From the IMG/VR virus record IMGVR_UViG_3300044626_000161, positions 1 to 25,147 of that record: DNA of 25,147 bases. One strand, written 5' to 3'. A program made the position numbers and the translations under genes. Positions 5,584 through 22,139 of the stretch are shown here, piece after piece. Position 1 is the stretch's first letter; each line of letters begins with the position of its first letter. The stretch comes from a virus. Below the pieces are notes generated by a model. The model did not search any database and was not told the origin of the DNA. It worked only from the letters and a program-made list of their open reading frames with translations.

Positions 5584-7407
5584 TTATGGGCAGTTACCAA
5601 AACCAATAGTTATGTAAATATTCCCTTCATATTTTCCAGTGCCATACCACTGCGGAATCTGAAATCTAAAAGATACAGGAACACCTGTACCCCATACCCC
5701 TGAAGCAATAATTGGAGTTCCTGCTGTTTGCATTGAAAAATATGTTCTCGTTCCTCCACCTGTTAAAACATTGCCCAAATCTATCGTACCCGGTTTTAAT
5801 TCGATGTAAGGAATATTTGTATCATAATCAATTTGAACGTAGTAATTTTGACCAGCTGTAATTGGACTGACACCCACATATAAATAAGCTTTACTCGGAC
5901 AATTGATAGCTTCTATGTGACAACTATTATCAACAATACCTTGTATAACTAAATTTGCGCCATAACCAGTTAAAGCAGAATAAGTTGTAACAAATTCACA
6001 AGGCTCAGGAGCTGGGATTGGATATTGGGATAGTGTGCTATTTATAGTATCATATTCGTTAGCTAATTGCAATCTTAATTGTTGGTTGTATTTGCGACTA
6101 TTGCGCTCCCTTCTCATCAAGAAATTATTGTCCTCAACAACAACTGGCAAGATATTGTAACCATCCACGTTATCATCTACCATCCAAACTGATTTCGATT
6201 GAAACAAGTCCTTCATAAATTTGAACTCCGACTCAGTTACCCAATCACTTGTTAAGTTGATGAATGTTTTAACGATTGGTTCACGCTCAGTGAGTGACCT
6301 TGAATAGTTCTTTGTGTCAAATGGATTTTCTACACTTGCCCCATTGTAATCCCCTAAGTATTGCTTATATCTTTTCTTTTCGACTTCAATAGATCTTTCA
6401 TTTTTCTTTATGAAAGAGTAGCTATCCCATCCACCTTTTTGGTTTAACCAGTAAACGTGAACTGGATTATGTTTGCAGTCCTCATCAATGTAAAATCCAT
6501 ATTTGGCAGTGACTTCTTCTTCTGCTTCATCTATTCCAACCACTGTCCAAAATGCTGTATTGTTTGCTATTGCATCATCAACATATACACTATTTACTAA
6601 ATTTTTTAGACCTACTGGAATATGAAACAATCCACCTCTTAAAAATTGCATTGGTATATCAAAACTCAATAATTCAGTATATGTATTATCATATAATATA
6701 TATCTAAAATTTGCTATTGTAAAATAGGGATAATTTTGATTAATATGTGTATCATCATCTGCTATCCAACTAAGTATTTTAAATGCACTATATTCTGCGC
6801 CTGTCACGTTTGACCTTGAAATACGTTGCCAATTGATAACCTCTTGTTGTAATGTCAAAGGAATGTTGATGCGTGACGCAATGGTCTCAGCATTGAATCC
6901 TATTGTGTTATCAAAGCATTCGGATAGTGCAAGTGGTTTAGTGTCATTGCTACCCATTACAAGAAAGTTGCTTTTGCCCTTACCATAAACACACATCAAA
7001 CGATAATCAACAGTTACTGAATCATCTTCAGTGAATACCCCTGCGACATCGTAACCTTCATAAAGATCAACAAAAAATTGATTAGTCATACTTGTATTAC
7101 TAACCAATGGCTCACTTATTTGAATTAAAATATCATCACTATCTGGAATAACCAAAGATGTTGGTACAAGTTGATTGAAAATAGTTTTAGCATTGAACAC
7201 ACCACTACCAACGGCATTGGGAGAAATGTAGAATTTATACGACTCAGATGTATTTCCATCAGTTATTACAACTACATACTTAAATCCACTATTAGCGAAC
7301 TCAGTTGAAGTCATTGTAAATGAGACATCATTATTTGAATAACACATCCCCCTGAATTCATTTGCGCCTTGTGCTGACAATCCTGTTATTGCTGTTGTAT
7401 ATGCCAT
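5584..7407 (-). CDS. Bacteroidota phage tail protein, unknown precise role
   Basis: A 607-aa, Asn/Thr/Tyr-rich, beta-strand-type protein without signal peptide or transmembrane helix. It carries a segment (about residues 300-345) with HNPVHVYWLNQKGGWDSYSF and a following KKRYKQYLGDYNG that recalls a tail protein family of Bacteroidota phages. The C-terminal ~130 residues after PIPAPEPCEFVTTYSAL look like a separate small beta-sandwich domain. It overlaps the gp10-like gene upstream by one base and precedes the 1015-aa tail protein by 9 nt, so these genes are likely one transcription unit. I infer a distal-tail or baseplate component. A major capsid protein seems unlikely from the architecture, but this cannot be excluded without structure prediction. 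Confidence 0.6.
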   Translation of the reverse strand: MAYTTAITGLSAQGANEFRGMCYSNNDVSFTMTSTEFANSGFKYVVVITDGNTSESYKFYISPNAVGSGVFNAKTIFNQLVPTSLVIPDSDDILIQISEPLVSNTSMTNQFFVDLYEGYDVAGVFTEDDSVTVDYRLMCVYGKGKSNFLVMGSNDTKPLALSECFDNTIGFNAETIASRINIPLTLQQEVINWQRISRSNVTGAEYSAFKILSWIADDDTHINQNYPYFTIANFRYILYDNTYTELLSFDIPMQFLRGGLFHIPVGLKNLVNSVYVDDAIANNTAFWTVVGIDEAEEEVTAKYGFYIDEDCKHNPVHVYWLNQKGGWDSYSFIKKNERSIEVEKKRYKQYLGDYNGASVENPFDTKNYSRSLTEREPIVKTFINLTSDWVTESEFKFMKDLFQSKSVWMVDDNVDGYNILPVVVEDNNFLMRRERNSRKYNQQLRLQLANEYDTINSTLSQYPIPAPEPCEFVTTYSALTGYGANLVIQGIVDNSCHIEAINCPSKAYLYVGVSPITAGQNYYVQIDYDTNIPYIELKPGTIDLGNVLTGGGTRTYFSMQTAGTPIIASGVWGTGVPVSFRFQIPQWYGTGKYEGNIYITIGFGNCP

Positions 7408-7982
7408 TATATTTTTATTTTACCTTGTAAATTTTCTTCGATTGCTATTGTTATCTCACCCTTCAATGCCGCCATAAATCTATCGTTAAATTCCACCACC
7501 GTTTCATTGACTGCATCCCGAAAATAAAATAGTGGTTTGATACCTCTACGTGCTATTGACCTCGCTATCTTGCTTGCCATCCAATCGGTAGCATCTTCCT
7601 TTGCTTTTGGTGTGGCGAATTTCTTAAATGAACCATTTGGTTCACGTGGTTGAATGCGTTTAATCTTCATCCAGTTGCGAATTGCATCCACATCAACTGA
7701 CTTTTTTCTAAATGAAAATCGAGAGTTGTTATTAACCTGATAACCATTCACACCTTCCTCAACAAATACTGAATATTCGGATGCAGTTCCTTTCGCAAAG
7801 AAATCAATGCGCTTGTATTTATTGTCATATCGGTAAGTCAATGACTTACGTAAGTTATCGGATGCTACTGCTCTTCTTTTCTTTCCATTCACTGTGCGAT
7901 AGACTCCGAGATTGAGCATAGCACGCTCAACAACCTCCTGTCCAAACTCGTTCATCAATGCGGTGATTGGATTAGTAGCCAT
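7407..7982 (-). CDS. HK97 gp10-like head-tail joining / tail completion protein
   Basis: A 191-aa protein fitting the HK97 gp10-like neck family. Visible signs are an N-terminal helix (ALMNEFGQEVVERAMLNL), basic residues leading to DNLRKSLTYRY, then the family-like YSVFVEEGVNGY segment near residue 73, and a C-terminal IKPLFYFRDAVNETV helix (about 148-162) typical of the end of these proteins. Members sit at the head-tail interface and are needed for tail joining. It overlaps the small gene upstream by 11 nt and touches the tail protein gene downstream. The length is somewhat above the usual 120-150 aa because of a basic middle insertion (about 95-140). Confidence 0.6.
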   Translation of the reverse strand: MATNPITALMNEFGQEVVERAMLNLGVYRTVNGKKRRAVASDNLRKSLTYRYDNKYKRIDFFAKGTASEYSVFVEEGVNGYQVNNNSRFSFRKKSVDVDAIRNWMKIKRIQPREPNGSFKKFATPKAKEDATDWMASKIARSIARRGIKPLFYFRDAVNETVVEFNDRFMAALKGEITIAIEENLQGKIKI

Positions 7983-8169: not shown

Positions 8170-9421
8170 ACATTATTGAATTACCTACAAGTGCATTAGC
8201 TGCAGATGCATTATTTACAACTTTGAAAGTTATTAAATCACCTTTAACAACTGATATATTAGATGAGTTGTTGTAATATTTATTAGTTGCGCTACCCGCA
8301 GCAATTGTAATAGTCATTGATGTATCAACTGTATTGACTCGCAATGTAAAAACAAGACTTCCGCTTGCAGGTTGTGCGTTTACATTCACTGCCCAATTAT
8401 TAATAGTTCCGTTTAACGGAATTATGGTATTGCGAGAAAATTCACTCGCTAAAATGACAAAAGTCGTAGCTCCTGACCAACCACCATAAGTTGTGGTTAC
8501 TGCATTAATAGCCACACCTCCATGATTTTGATTCAAAATTGATTTTGAAACTGATGTTGTTGGTGTTTGATTTTCCCATAAGTCAGTTGATGAATTATAG
8601 GTTAATACTTGACCATTGGTAGGTGATGACAAAGCTACATCGTGAAGCTCTCCCAATTCATATCCATTCTGCACCCTAACATACATACGACCTGCACTCC
8701 CATTACTGGCAGTGGTAACGAATCCAAGATAAACCAAATGATTTGGTGCTGTAGGTTTGGTGTGACTAAATGAACCTGCAGTTGCGCCAAGATAAACAGC
8801 ATCCCCATCAGACCAAGTTGAAGTTGGAAATAAATTAAGACCATCAATTTGGCCTTGCATTATTATCAATCCCTTTTGATTTGCACCTATTGAAGTAGAC
8901 AACACAACACCAATAGTCTGCGCCGAAAGTGCATCCGTTGTATTACTAGCTAACTTTACTTTGAGACGGTCACCCTGTCCACCAAATGCATAGACCGCTT
9001 GGCCTTTTGTTATGGTAGTAGATTCCGCATTGGTCACATAACTAAGCAATGTATTTGGAGCAGTTCCAATAACTTGGAATCGGTTAGTAGTTGAGTTGTA
9101 AACGCATAGCATTTCAGCACCACTAATAATATCACCACCAATCACCTCACCATCATTATTTCGGTACAATGGAATCGCACCAAGTGAGTTGATGTTTAGC
9201 GTTGCTGAAGTTGTATTGCCAATAACAAACCTAATCAAAAATGCATCCGCATCATTGTAAGCTGTCACCCCACTTATTGTGGTTGTGTAAGTATCGGTAC
9301 CTGAAGTATTGCCGTGAGGAATACCACCCCCACCGCTTGGAATAGTTTTCCAAGTATTGTCCGCAGCTAAATAATCAGTAGTTGCAGCAGGTTGGTTGGT
9401 TGTGTATTGAAGTTTTTTCAT
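8159..9421 (-). CDS. tail fibre / receptor-binding-like protein
   Basis: A 420-aa, Gly/Thr/Ser/Asn-rich protein. A Gly patch (SGGGGIPHG, near residue 33) is followed by short beta repeats. A middle module (about residues 130-255: ITKGQAVYAFGG, TIGVVLST, GLIIMQGQIDGLNL, GDAVYLGATAGSF, MYVRVQNGYELGELHDV) resembles a capping module seen in many phage tail-fibre proteins. A further linker (LTYNSSTDLWENQTP) leads to a C-terminal beta domain. It is probably a fibre-like or virion decoration protein that contacts the host surface. It lies between the tail-terminator-like gene (adjacent, sharing base 9421) and the small gene at 7972. No endosialidase or peptidase motif was seen. Confidence 0.65.
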   Translation of the reverse strand: MKKLQYTTNQPAATTDYLAADNTWKTIPSGGGGIPHGNTSGTDTYTTTISGVTAYNDADAFLIRFVIGNTTSATLNINSLGAIPLYRNNDGEVIGGDIISGAEMLCVYNSTTNRFQVIGTAPNTLLSYVTNAESTTITKGQAVYAFGGQGDRLKVKLASNTTDALSAQTIGVVLSTSIGANQKGLIIMQGQIDGLNLFPTSTWSDGDAVYLGATAGSFSHTKPTAPNHLVYLGFVTTASNGSAGRMYVRVQNGYELGELHDVALSSPTNGQVLTYNSSTDLWENQTPTTSVSKSILNQNHGGVAINAVTTTYGGWSGATTFVILASEFSRNTIIPLNGTINNWAVNVNAQPASGSLVFTLRVNTVDTSMTITIAAGSATNKYYNNSSNISVVKGDLITFKVVNNASAANALVGNSIMYEV

Positions 9422-9891
9422 TACTCTCCGATAAATGGTATCTCACACGCATTCCATTCGTAATCTACTGTGATGTCAATGGACAATTGCACACCCGTTA
9501 AGACGTGGCTAAATTCTTCTATAAATGGCTGCGCTGAAATTGGTTTACCCAATACAACTGACTCATCAAAGATGCTCCCATTTTCCAACATCGCCACAAA
9601 GTCACCAGCCAACTGAATGCACTCGCTCATTGATTGCCTTTGGTATTCCGTTTTTTCTTCCTTATCTCTTGGAAGGTCAGCAAAGTAAACATCAAAAGAA
9701 TACGTTAACGCACCCGCATCAAAGCTAAATGAAGTTGGTGTAACGTGCATCCAAGGCCACTCACCCTCTTTCTCTAAATCAGCTTGTGATATTTGTCCGT
9801 GTGTGAACCTGCGAAGTAGTGCGTGGCTATTTGAGAATTGCTCAAATTTACCAATGACTACATTGTATGTATAAAGAGATGAATCGCTCAT
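9421..9891 (-). CDS. tail terminator / minor tail protein-like
   Basis: A 156-aa protein without membrane segments or catalytic motifs. Features are an N-terminal NVVIGKFEQFSNSHALLRRF helix-loop, a central beta region (HVTPTSFSFDAGALTYSFDVYF), a polar helix (EYQRQSMSECIQLAGDFVAML) and a C-terminal beta segment (LTGVQLSIDITVDYEWNACEIPF). The alternating alpha/beta pattern and the location directly after the tail assembly chaperone fit a tail terminator or tail completion protein, but no family match can be made by eye. It ends where the fibre-like gene begins. Confidence 0.5.
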   Translation of the reverse strand: MSDSSLYTYNVVIGKFEQFSNSHALLRRFTHGQISQADLEKEGEWPWMHVTPTSFSFDAGALTYSFDVYFADLPRDKEEKTEYQRQSMSECIQLAGDFVAMLENGSIFDESVVLGKPISAQPFIEEFSHVLTGVQLSIDITVDYEWNACEIPFIGE

Positions 9892-9905: not shown

Positions 9906-10190
9906 TTAATGTTCATTTTTAGACATCAATTGTTTCTGATAGTTGTAATAATCTAACCGATAAGATAAATGCGCAAATATGGTAGACGCTTGCGTATCTG
10001 TGATTGCGTCAAATTTAGTGATGTCTCTATCCGCTAATTCTTCGATTACGTGAAACCATCCATAGCGTTCTGCTAGTTCGCTTGTTGCAACTGTTCCTCC
10101 ATCATCTCCATCGCCTTCGTCAAGTTCGTCTGTATCTGGGATTCTAAAAACGAGAGGGAAGTGGTCACTAATTCGCTTTCGATAGTCGAA
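9906..10190 (-). CDS. T-part of tail assembly chaperone, made by -1 frameshift
   Basis: An open -1 frame extension of the gene at 10073-10651. Slippage on T_TTT_TTT at 10196-10190 would add 94 residues after residue 154, giving about 248 aa and ending at TAA 9908-9906. The extension reads FDYRKRISDHFPL, an acidic Gly/Asp linker, then a helical end (SELAERYGWFHVIEELADR, DAITDTQASTIFAHLSYRL). No good independent start or Shine-Dalgarno precedes it, and without the frameshift it would leave an otherwise unexplained 180-nt gap between genes. By analogy with GT proteins, the T-part would recruit tube subunits to the chaperone-coated tape measure. Confidence 0.65.
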   Translation of the reverse strand, partial: FDYRKRISDHFPLVFRIPDTDELDEGDGDDGGTVATSELAERYGWFHVIEELADRDITKFDAITDTQASTIFAHLSYRLDYYNYQKQLMSKNEH

Positions 10191-10651
10191 AAAAAAAGCA
10201 GCGCACCATTCGCAACTGATAAAGGCATTTGCTCAAAGTCTTTCGCATTACTCAAGTGATCCGATGTGTACTGCTCAATCTTATATTTAGTTCCAATCTC
10301 CGAACTAATGGGACGGTATAGTATGGAAAGTAACTTGGGAAGGTTCTTTGGAAAGTCTTTGCAATTAGTATCCAAGTCCAACCATTCACCAAATGAAATC
10401 TTATTGATGTCGGGGATGAATCCGTACCCATTCCACTTATGTTGATGGTTAGCTAATGGGTTAGTGATGACCTCTCTAAATGCAGTGATTGCTTTCTCCA
10501 TATCTTCGGGAGTGAGCTGCCTAACGAAGTCTTTTGATTGTCCGAGAATAGCGGACACTTGACCGATGTCGTTACCTTCATTATTAAGGAAGTCAACGTA
10601 CTGCTTTACCGTTATGGTATTATAGTCAATGGATACTTTAATCTTTTGCAT
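10073..10651 (-). CDS. tail assembly chaperone, short (G-like) form
   Basis: A 192-aa predicted tail assembly chaperone that would bind the tape measure during tail formation. The start at 10651 is chosen because a strong GGAGGAGG Shine-Dalgarno lies 5 nt upstream, unusual here, while the earlier in-frame ATG at 10687 would put that site inside the coding region. The protein begins MQKIKVSIDYNTITVKQYVDF and is helical. At codons 152-154 (CTT TTT TTT) lies a perfect T_TTT_TTT slippery site, and the -1 frame beyond it is open for 94 codons, as expected for lambda/HK97-type G/GT genes. Position just before the tail terminator-like gene and upstream of the tape measure agrees. The N-terminus overlaps the preceding small gene by 14 nt. 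Confidence 0.7.
   Translation of the reverse strand: MQKIKVSIDYNTITVKQYVDFLNNEGNDIGQVSAILGQSKDFVRQLTPEDMEKAITAFREVITNPLANHQHKWNGYGFIPDINKISFGEWLDLDTNCKDFPKNLPKLLSILYRPISSEIGTKYKIEQYTSDHLSNAKDFEQMPLSVANGALLFFSTIESELVTTSLSFLESQIQTNLTKAMEMMEEQLQQAN
10190..10196 (-). promoter_or_regulatory. -1 ribosomal frameshift slippery heptamer T_TTT_TTT
   Basis: Nine consecutive T on the coding strand (10197-10189) follow C, giving codons CTT TTT TTT TCG in the zero frame. The heptamer T_TTT_TTT is in the correct X_XXY_YYZ register. Re-pairing by -1 leads into the 94-codon open extension ending at 9906. No stimulatory pseudoknot was worked out. Confidence 0.65.
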
Positions 10652-10814
10652 TCTGCACCTCCTCCAATACTTTATTAATCCATTCATCGAATAGGTTACT
10701 CATCTCAGTTTTTGCAAGGCGTTTGCGTTGCTCCTTTTGCTGTAGCCATAAGCCGAATAATACACACATAGTGTAAGTATGTTTGGCAGTTTCTTGCGAT
10801 TGTTCTTGATCCAT
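10638..10814 (-). CDS. small hypothetical protein upstream of tail chaperone
   Basis: A 58-aa frame starting MDQEQSQETAKHTY and ending EEVQNAKD. The start ATG overlaps the stop of the gene before it (TAATG), and its last 14 nt overlap the chaperone start; the Shine-Dalgarno of the chaperone lies inside it. This tight double coupling is the main support. It is a polar, helical protein (FGLWLQQKEQRKRLAK; NLFDEWINKVLEEVQ) of unknown function, plausibly part of the tail assembly group. Confidence 0.6.
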   Translation of the reverse strand: MDQEQSQETAKHTYTMCVLFGLWLQQKEQRKRLAKTEMSNLFDEWINKVLEEVQNAKD

Positions 10815-13234: not shown

Positions 13235-13725
13235 ATTGCTGATTTTCTTGATTTTCTTCCACGTTTTTTGGGTTGTGGGGTTTGTTCTTCACTAAGTAGC
13301 ACTTCCTCACTTTTTAATTGATTGTGAAGGTCGTCAATCATCTTATTCACGCACGGAACGCAACTACTCACCTTGCCCTTACTACCCTTCATCAACTCAT
13401 CGAATTCCGCTAATAATCTACGCTGTGCATCAGTTAGCATATTGGTAGCCTTAACGGATTGAACTAACTCTTTCGCCTGCGCTTTCTTTTCGCTATCCAC
13501 TACAATGGGCCACTTTCCTGCAGGGCAATCTTGGAATGTCATTTTAGTTTTCAAATCCAAGAAACATCCGCACGGCTTAAAGGTCACACCATCTAAAGTT
13601 ACAGGTGTAGCGAATGGGTTTAATTTGTTGAGTGGTGTTCCACAAGTTCGGGTTGTCGAATTGTATACTGGACATTCTCGACAAATAGCCATCCGCATAT
13701 TTGCCATTTCTAAAATCTTATTCAT
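13231..13725 (-). CDS. Cys-rich zinc-binding protein with AT-hook-like tail
   Basis: A 164-aa protein. The N-terminal half carries CRECPVYNSTTRTCG (residues about 15-29), then KPCGCFLDLK and QDCPAGKWP (about 51-74), giving at least six Cys in zinc-site spacing. A second pair, SCVPCVNKM, follows near residue 122. The C-terminus is PKKRGRKSRKS, an RGRK core flanked by basic residues like an AT-hook. The arrangement points to a nucleic-acid-binding protein. It follows the sigma-like gene with an ATGA overlap and precedes a membrane protein, so the three are probably co-translated. A regulatory or replication role is inferred only. Confidence 0.6.
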   Translation of the reverse strand: MNKILEMANMRMAICRECPVYNSTTRTCGTPLNKLNPFATPVTLDGVTFKPCGCFLDLKTKMTFQDCPAGKWPIVVDSEKKAQAKELVQSVKATNMLTDAQRRLLAEFDELMKGSKGKVSSCVPCVNKMIDDLHNQLKSEEVLLSEEQTPQPKKRGRKSRKSAI

Positions 13726-14207
13726 ATCACAATAGCTTTTTTAATTTCATTTTTAGCGTATTTAACAGCGTTGTAAAGGACTTTCTTTGGTATGCCAGTA
13801 TCAATGCTCAGGTCATTGTAACTAAAGTCATTTAATGCGTATAAGTAAAAGACTTCACGCTCAAAAAATGGAAGGCGGGAAATCAAGATATCAAGTTGCT
13901 CATTGGTTATACGGTCACCTAACCACACGGTCACACTCTCGTAATCTCGCAGTTGCGATTCCGTTGGCTCATCACTCATCTGATTGAACTTCCTGATTGT
14001 GTTATGGTAGTGACTGCGATTAGACCAGTGCGCAATCTTTAGTGCGTGGTTAATGTAGTGTTCGCTGTTCCTTATCTCATTGCCATTTTCAAAGATGCAT
14101 AAAAGAGTATCGTGCAGAAGATCATCTGCCTCATAGACATTGCCACCGCACAAGTTAATGGCTAACCTACGATGCTGGTCATATTGCGTTGGTGAAATAT
14201 GCATCAA
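13722..14207 (-). CDS. sigma-70/ECF-like RNA polymerase sigma factor
   Basis: A 161-aa protein with the size and two-domain plan of small sigma factors. The region 2-like part has GGNVYEADDLLHDTLLCIFE (about residues 21-40), matching the acidic A-DL-QD-F-- core helix. The region 4-like part at the C-terminus has ISRLPFFEREVFYLYALNDF followed by SYNDLSIDTGIPKKVLYNAV (about 108-150), the L---ER-VF-L and helix-turn-helix pattern that binds the -35 element. It would redirect host RNA polymerase to phage promoters, probably for the late leftward genes. It overlaps the VRR-NUC gene by 29 nt. Divergence means it may be a sigma-like regulator and not a full sigma factor. Confidence 0.65.
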   Translation of the reverse strand: MMHISPTQYDQHRRLAINLCGGNVYEADDLLHDTLLCIFENGNEIRNSEHYINHALKIAHWSNRSHYHNTIRKFNQMSDEPTESQLRDYESVTVWLGDRITNEQLDILISRLPFFEREVFYLYALNDFSYNDLSIDTGIPKKVLYNAVKYAKNEIKKAIVI

Positions 14208-21373: not shown

Positions 21374-21579
21374 ATATAACCCACGATTTTGATAACTGCC
21401 AGTCGGACATCTACAAAGAGGTCATTACTGATCTAATCTCACGCGAAAAAATGGGTAGGGCTAAGTATGGCACAACGGTAGATAAGGCGAATCTATCCGA
21501 AAAGGAATGGATGCAACACGCATACGAAGAGGCTCTTGATTTTGCTATCTACTTAAAAAGATTGATGTCAAAAAAATGA
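21370..21579 (+). CDS. small MazG/dATP-dGTP diphosphohydrolase-like phage protein
   Basis: A 69-aa protein with EVITDLISREKMGRAKYGTT, then LSEKEWMQHAYEEALDFAIYLKRLM. The R---G--KYGTTVD-A-LS---W-QHAYEEALD-A-YLKR pattern is widespread in phages and is often annotated as a nucleotide pyrophosphohydrolase-like domain; the EE--D helix would fit a metal site, but the protein is only half the length of true MazG domains, so activity is uncertain. Last gene before the rightward terminator; its end overlaps the convergent membrane protein gene by 35 nt. Confidence 0.6.
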   Translation: MNITHDFDNCQSDIYKEVITDLISREKMGRAKYGTTVDKANLSEKEWMQHAYEEALDFAIYLKRLMSKK

Positions 21580-21940
21580 CATTAGCACCAACTATCAAAA
21601 GAGTGGCATTGCGCCACTTTTTTTTTGCCCTTAATCCCTCATTTAATTCCTCACTTAATCCCTCATTAACTTGTTTTAAATGGGACAAATCACGCTGTAA
21701 TTGTACGATATATGACTCATTACGCAGGTTAATGGTCTTTAATGTTTGATTCTCCAAACAAAGATTGGCATTCATTTGCTTGTGATATTCAAGTGATGTA
21801 ACTGCTAACACAACCAATCGTCTTTCAGTGCGTAAAGAATCCAGCTCCTTCCATCTCAATGAGTCTTTCGATAGCCTTTGAGTATGCGCTATCAATGGCA
21901 GTGCTATCCATAAGATAGATAGTATCAATGTCTTTTTCAT
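21545..21940 (-). CDS. secreted/membrane coiled-coil protein, spanin candidate
   Basis: A 131-aa protein with an N-terminal signal-type helix (MKKTLILSILWIALPLIAHT), a long polar coiled coil (about residues 25-105, with LRWKELDSLRTERRL; IVQLQRDLSHLKQVNEGL) and a C-terminal hydrophobic segment (ATLLIVGANVIFLTSIFL). No lipobox Cys follows the signal, so it is not a standard lipoprotein. ATG 21940 is preferred to the upstream TTG at 21967. It overlaps the preceding gene by 116 nt in a different frame, like nested Rz/Rz1 pairs, and lies at the end of the lysis region; a role in disrupting the outer membrane is an inference. Confidence 0.5.
   Translation of the reverse strand: MKKTLILSILWIALPLIAHTQRLSKDSLRWKELDSLRTERRLVVLAVTSLEYHKQMNANLCLENQTLKTINLRNESYIVQLQRDLSHLKQVNEGLSEELNEGLRAKKKWRNATLLIVGANVIFLTSIFLSR
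21602..21626 (+). terminator. rho-independent terminator ending the rightward operon
   Basis: AGTGGC (21602-21607) pairs perfectly with GCCACT (21613-21618) around ATTGC, followed by nine T (21618-21626). It lies 22 nt past the last rightward stop codon. The same bases encode KKKWRNAT in the opposite-strand gene, so the terminator is overprinted on coding sequence. Confidence 0.85.
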
Positions 21941-22139
21941 AAATGCTTTTGATTTTAATGCGTTCAAGTTTCAGCGTGTCAACTGTTGCTTTTAATACAA
22001 CAATTGTATCGTTATGGTAAACCGATTTTGTGATTGGTTTATAGTTGTTTTCACATATCAATATACCAATGGCAATACCAATGCTAATAGATATTGCCTT
22101 GATTAATACGATAGTTTTTAACGTGAAATTCTTTTCCAT
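21825..22139 (-). CDS. N-anchored periplasmic protein, i-spanin (Rz)-like candidate
   Basis: A 104-aa protein with one N-terminal transmembrane helix (LKTIVLIKAISISIGIAIGIL, about residues 7-27) and a polar, probably periplasmic helical domain (VVLKATVDTLKLERIKIKSI; AIDSAYSKAIERLIEMEG). This is the plan of inner-membrane spanins. It overlaps the metallophosphoesterase gene by 56 nt at its start and the coiled-coil gene by 116 nt at its end. Location after holin and endolysin supports a lysis role, but spanins have no reliable motif and this could be another small membrane protein. Confidence 0.5.
   Translation of the reverse strand: MEKNFTLKTIVLIKAISISIGIAIGILICENNYKPITKSVYHNDTIVVLKATVDTLKLERIKIKSIYEKDIDTIYLMDSTAIDSAYSKAIERLIEMEGAGFFTH

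Follow-up and report, generated by a model that had tools for sequence, protein, structure and literature searches.

A predicted G/GT-type tail chaperone of Bacteroidota phages whose long form is probably made by transcriptional slippage at nine T

The window analysed here is the whole 25,147-nucleotide stretch at positions 1 to 25,147 of IMG/VR virus record IMGVR_UViG_3300044626_000161. An initial annotation, made from the sequence of this DNA, proposed that a tail assembly chaperone gene within it yields two products by a programmed -1 frameshift at a run of nine T. The features of the window that bear on this proposal are as follows.

10073..10651, minus strand: G-like 0-frame gene of 192 aa, with its ATG at 10651 and its stop at 10075-10073
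10189..10197, minus strand: run of nine T read from the sequence, the proposed slippage site
10190..10196, minus strand: T_TTT_TTT heptamer in 0-frame register, the site of the ribosomal alternative
9906..10190, minus strand: T-like -1-frame extension of 94 codons plus a stop at 9908-9906, with the motif YGWFHVIEELADRDITKFD
10073..10188, minus strand: region read in both the 0 and -1 frames, in which variation is suppressed
9421..9891, minus strand: next gene, 156 aa, function unknown, with its ATG at 9891, 15 nt past the -1 stop
7407..7982, minus strand: tail completion/Neck1-like gene (phrog_29822, 8e-7; phrog_5, 7e-4), with a counterpart in Nonlabens phage P12024S
611..2359, minus strand: tape-measure-like gene (phrog_1506, 5.9e-11), about 7.7 kb downstream on the same strand

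The 0-frame codons across the run are CTT TTT TTT TCG. An in-frame ATG lies upstream at 10687 (0-frame ORF 10687-10073), and relatives begin at the ATG at 10651. Residues 1-154 make up the shared N-domain, which is followed by a 38-aa tail found in the short product only; a -1 shift at the run would join the same N-domain to the 94-residue extension, for a predicted fusion of 248 aa (154+94). All coordinates that the initial annotation gave for the nine T, and for T_TTT_TTT in exact register at 10196-10190, are right. The -1 frame is also open for 94 codons to 9906 and fills the gap before the next gene, as had been claimed, and the sizes of 192 and about 248 aa agree with the 192 and 248 aa that we computed from the two frames. 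A T9 run is not rare in the window, where five are found on both strands compared with 3.6 expected; thus, the window alone is weak evidence. Immediately upstream, a small ORF on the minus strand (10638-10814; MDQEQSQETAKH...) shares 14 nt with the start of the chaperone gene and is possibly translationally coupled to it.

Relatives of the gene were collected in a first scan of viral contigs, which produced 79 with 45-100% identity. In all 79, the homologous place is occupied by nine T, no more and no fewer, the -1 frame is open, and the total length is divisible by three only after a -1 shift. Relatives without the slippery run, or with stops in the -1 frame, were what the initial annotation had expected to find if it was wrong; the run was kept and the frame was open. 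Codon-position variation was computed among 19 distinct close relatives. Upstream of the run, variable sites accounted for 123/151 of 0-frame third positions compared with 33/152 and 15/151 at the other positions, whereas past the 0-frame stop they accounted for 46/55 of -1 third positions compared with 2/55 and 12/54. This last pattern is that of a coding -1 frame and backs the claim of a -1 fusion. Within the overlap (10073-10188), mean entropy was 0.13, 0.22, and 0.31 at 0-frame positions 1, 2, and 3, whereas third-position entropy outside the overlap was 0.80 upstream and 0.85 downstream. The variation thus indicates constraint on both frames from the T9 to the 0-frame stop. Consistent with a coding -1 frame, a WGW-type C-domain follows the run in that frame in nearly all homologues.

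In the window's -1 frame, neither ATG, GTG, nor TTG precedes residue 88; TTG and ATG occur only at residues 88 and 89. An independent start for this frame in the window, which the initial annotation had named as the other way in which the extension might be made, was therefore rejected. Among relatives, an ATG, GTG, or TTG codon occurs in the first 40 residues of 85/241 extensions, a count that takes in the junction codon itself where this is TTG; the argument from the absence of a -1 start holds for the window but is not universal. The G/GT-type architecture, a coding -1 frame that lacks its own start, is thus found here, with both products predicted. We consider the -1 fusion to be well supported by these patterns, with one shared N-terminal domain and a second, longer product that would be extended at the T run.

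Protein-level evidence was sought for both domains, which were folded separately with AlphaFold2. The N-domain model was good (pLDDT 94) and the C-domain model was poor (pLDDT 68). All 46 N-domain rows of alignment A7 matched phrog_32199, a family of unknown function, and 3/46 matched phrog_166, annotated as "tail protein." Searches of Pfam gave no match. NCBIfam likewise had nothing for the window, and the weak matches of other rows to this database were scattered and unrelated. The viral Foldseek matches of the N-domain were uncharacterised phage proteins, with a weak match to a "Tail assembly chaperone protein" at rank 41 (E 0.08). Among solved structures, a second-look alignment ranked the HK97 tail assembly chaperone first (PDB 2OB9; Z 2.8, 64 residues aligned, 11% identity), a similarity too slight to establish a relationship. 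In the window as in P12024S, the chaperone gene is followed on its strand, though not immediately, by the tail completion- and tape-measure-like genes; in P12024S, it comes after the large terminase. Taken together, the pair architecture and the fold, profile, and neighbour hints make it likely that the gene is a tail chaperone of the G/GT type. The identity assumed by the initial annotation is thus probable on indirect support, although no known chaperone family or fold was matched firmly.

A weak fold match was also obtained for gp10 of Flavobacterium phage 6H (10352-10927, minus strand), which has T_TTT_TTC near its end followed by an early -1 stop; a C-terminal coding stretch occurs further down, in the gap ahead of the next gene.

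To see which features of the site are kept, we used a wider set of homologues found by protein-level searches that made no use of the T run. The set comprises 265 homologues of about 20-100% aa identity: a first set of 253, which form 55 clusters at 70% and 33 at 50% identity, and 12 copies from cellular contigs. Its members include the window and its IMG/VR relatives, the Nonlabens phages P12024S and P12024L, and contigs binned to Winogradskyella, Psychroflexus, and others of the same class. A DNA search of a phage collection with the window region gave no match, and a scan of genome contigs with the close-relative alignment A1 gave none that was confirmed. A second scan of genome contigs, with alignment A4, gave three matches, one of which (L374) was rejected as spurious because it is a 942-aa unrelated ORF.

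The length of the run hardly varies across this set. It is T9 in 254/265 homologues and T10 in 11/265 (242 and 11, respectively, among the first 253), and is never shorter; the count excludes one locus in which the site is deleted (L221) and one whose contig stops ahead of it (L388). The codon phase, in contrast, takes all three values. Most homologues have phase 1 (NTT TTT TTT TNN), some have phase 2 (GCT/AGT/GGT/TAT/ACT TTT TTT TTR, as in GCT TTT TTT TTG of L380 and ACT TTT TTT TTG of L382), and L387 has phase 0 (TTT TTT TTT CAG). The residue ahead of the two phenylalanines is accordingly L, V, I, F, A, S, T, G, or Y. In L306 and L322, a first codon of AGT loses the usual first T and the other end of the run is lengthened to T10. 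This compensation, together with the three phases, shows that length is kept while register and residues vary. Thus, the alignments point to a run of at least nine T, and not a heptamer, as the conserved object, and its conservation at the homologous place is far beyond chance. In phase-1 sites, T0 and T8 each occupy the middle position of a hydrophobic codon, in the 0 and -1 frames, and a need for these residues could account for part of the constancy; as a pure protein constraint, however, the T9 is made less plausible by the A, S, T, G, or Y ahead of FF in phase 2 and by a doubly silent position described below.

Few recoding events in tailed phages are as widely conserved as the G/GT frameshift, which is assumed to occur on the ribosome. 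Published accounts treat tail-chaperone shifts as the classical ribosomal case, some of them operating without a stimulator (PMC5009743). By analogy, the shift here could be classical -1 programmed ribosomal frameshifting at T_TTT_TTT, stimulator-free and of low efficiency as in lambda G/GT, which we regard as unlikely. An X_XXY_YYZ heptamer does lie in 0-frame register in the window, although by arithmetic one is unavoidable within any T9; ribosomal slippage could accordingly play a part or even be enough. A ribosomal site of the form T_TTT_TTY needs only seven bases, so T7, T8, or T_TTT_TTC would be expected among so many lineages; yet T7 or T8 was found in 0/265 homologues, and runs of at least nine occur in three phases. 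In addition, U_UUU_UUU reportedly shifts far less readily than A_AAA_AAG does in E. coli (PMC5009743).

The doubly silent position provides a further argument. In 27/55 lineages, the first -1 codon is TTA or TTG, such that ending the second Phe codon in C would alter neither protein and would leave T_TTT_TTC. This alternative was used in 0/27 lineages, T being kept in 27/27, compared with a TTC share of 35% among the other Phe codons of those ORFs. The probability of this outcome is about 1e-5 for the 27 lineages, 6e-4 for 16 lineages at 50% identity, and 3e-3 for 11 lineages at 40% identity, figures that are rough because the calculation treats clusters as independent and the lineages are not.

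The elements that usually, though not obligatorily, accompany a ribosomal shift were also rare or not detected. In a calculation that does not treat pseudoknots as such, RNA structure 5' or 3' of the run gave no signal in 55 lineages (mean z between -0.05 and +0.18), including downstream of 10190, where the initial annotation had suggested that a pseudoknot be sought. No Shine-Dalgarno-like AGGAG, GGAGG, or AAGGA was found upstream, and GGAG was found in 4/55 lineages. The window's clade has a hairpin at the T run (TTTCGA-NTA-TCGAAA), which was considered and rejected: its pairs never covary, two sequences break the pairing, and many lineages lack it. We judge it to be a by-product of the codons for F-D/E-Y-R-K-R. 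Thus, of the programmed -1 frameshift that was originally proposed, the long -1-frame product stands, but a ribosomal shift at a T7 heptamer fits poorly with at least nine T in three phases and with the invariance of the silent site.

The slip is more probably made by RNA polymerase at the obligate T9 than by the ribosome at T7, judging from what the sequences keep. Runs of 9 A/T slip efficiently in vivo, and the polymerase has an RNA:DNA hybrid of 9-10 bp (PMC5009743). What is expected of a slippage site, an A/T run of about nine or more with length rather than register kept, is found here (254 T9, 11 T10). The threshold for avoidance of such runs in many bacterial genomes is also nine (PMC1088944). 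Elsewhere in the coding sequence of these loci (187 kb), no T run reaches nine, compared with 3.4 expected from synonymous shuffling, and A and T runs of this length together numbered 4 compared with about 14 expected. Such runs are thus avoided outside the chaperone gene, although T7 and T8 runs are depleted as well, so the avoidance is graded and not specific to nine. One of the four A/T runs elsewhere is in the window itself, an A9 on the minus strand (21618-21626, ORF 21545-21967) that forms three AAA Lys codons, with a hydrophobic C-terminus following. The +1 frame, into which eight or eleven U would lead, has its first stop after a mean of 4.8 codons, compared with about 12 at background positions; this is only suggestive, because a common TTTAG motif underlies many of the early stops.

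We think it likely that this is a G/GT-type tail assembly chaperone whose long form arises by programmed transcriptional slippage. As the polymerase copies the T9, the nine-base RNA:DNA hybrid would be all U:dA and could realign by one base. A share of the mRNAs would thereby gain one U (ten instead of nine), putting the remaining message in the -1 frame, and normal translation of the ten-U mRNA would give the 248-aa fusion of N-domain, acidic linker, and WGW-type C-domain. The unslipped nine-U mRNA would give the 192-aa short form, and translation of mRNAs with eight or eleven U would terminate within a few codons. The ratio of short to long forms would then serve tail assembly as it does in lambda. 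In pairs of the G/GT type, the tape measure is bound by the short form and the major tail protein by the extension, and the ratio is important. There is also a reasonable likelihood that this holds for a large lineage of Bacteroidota phages and prophages, in which obligate polymerase slippage at nine, rarely ten, T would replace ribosomal frameshifting for the chaperone pair, with run length fixed at the size of the RNA:DNA hybrid and codon register drifting freely.

Two further explanations were weighed. Polymerase and ribosome might both slip at the run, or a ribosome sliding on a long U run might itself need about nine U. Reviews allow that a site may do both (PMC5009743), and ribosome sliding on A runs is known (PMC4363877); no support specific to the T9 site was found, and we consider this improbable. 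The other explanation is switching at the DNA level by replication slippage or phase variation, with T9 giving the short form and T10 the fusion, or else a sequencing artefact, homopolymers of this length being prone to errors and mutation. In one contig (L300:2555-3298), a T10 does make the DNA encode the fusion in frame. This is the only such case, however: the remaining T10 copies keep the -1 arrangement, T9 occurs in hundreds of independent assemblies and in the isolates P12024S and P12024L, and the stretch from the T9 to the 0-frame stop is constrained in both frames. We therefore give the DNA-level explanation hardly any weight. The nearest relative of L300 (L362, 58% identity) has T9. 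Another contig (L221:2481-3134) has lost the slip site through a deletion that fuses the N- and C-domains in frame. Each of L300 and L221 is a single metagenome contig, and either could be a genuine variant or an error of assembly.

Polymerase slippage of the kind favoured here has precedents outside phage tails. Like dnaX of Thermus thermophilus, mxiE, spa13, and spa33 of Shigella, tssM1 of Citrobacter rodentium, and IS transposases, the gene has an A/T run of at least nine, two protein forms (here predicted), and no ribosomal stimulators (PMC5009743, PMC1088944, PMC4256274). Unlike them, it is a predicted phage tail chaperone, which none of those genes is, and its proposed slippage, deduced from sequence, is a conserved trait of a large phage family. 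In the open-access literature that we searched, no report of a tail chaperone that uses transcriptional slippage was found.

The predicted pair resembles lambda G/GT and its relatives (architecture from PMC5009743) in a shared N-domain, which would be made in excess, and a rarer -1 extension; its gene also lies upstream of a tape-measure-like gene, possibly as part of a tail gene cluster. The pair differs in that no common sequence family was found and in that the slip site is an obligate T9/T10, not a GGGAAAG-type heptamer. A further difference is that almost every lineage has 24-86 more 0-frame codons (median 52) after the slip site. This 0-frame tail is constrained together with the -1 frame in the window's clade, and the tail of the short product may have a function of its own.

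Isolated members of the family are Nonlabens phages P12024S and P12024L, whose genes _38 and _39 have a run of exactly nine T in register, followed by a -1 extension of 81 residues; their proteins share about 25% aa identity with the window's. In P12024S (L081:12004-12698), the two are annotated as unrelated hypothetical proteins, and they are predicted here to be two halves of one slippage gene. If slippage is the mechanism, annotation would split or truncate the chaperone protein elsewhere as it has these two genes. The sequences indicate that the T9 site is conserved across a large and mostly uncharacterised lineage of Bacteroidota phages. If true, the same product logic would have evolved on another machine, as reported for dnaX of Thermus compared with that of E. 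coli, and the mRNA itself would contain ten U. Published slippage sites yield about 15-55% (PMC4256274), and the ratio of long to short forms would probably differ from lambda's 30:1.

Under polymerase slippage, the properties of the host polymerase could also matter for tail assembly. The window encodes a gene resembling a sigma factor of RNA polymerase (13722-14207, minus strand; phrog_1740, 4e-9), and the phage may steer the host polymerase to its late genes via this sigma-factor-like protein.
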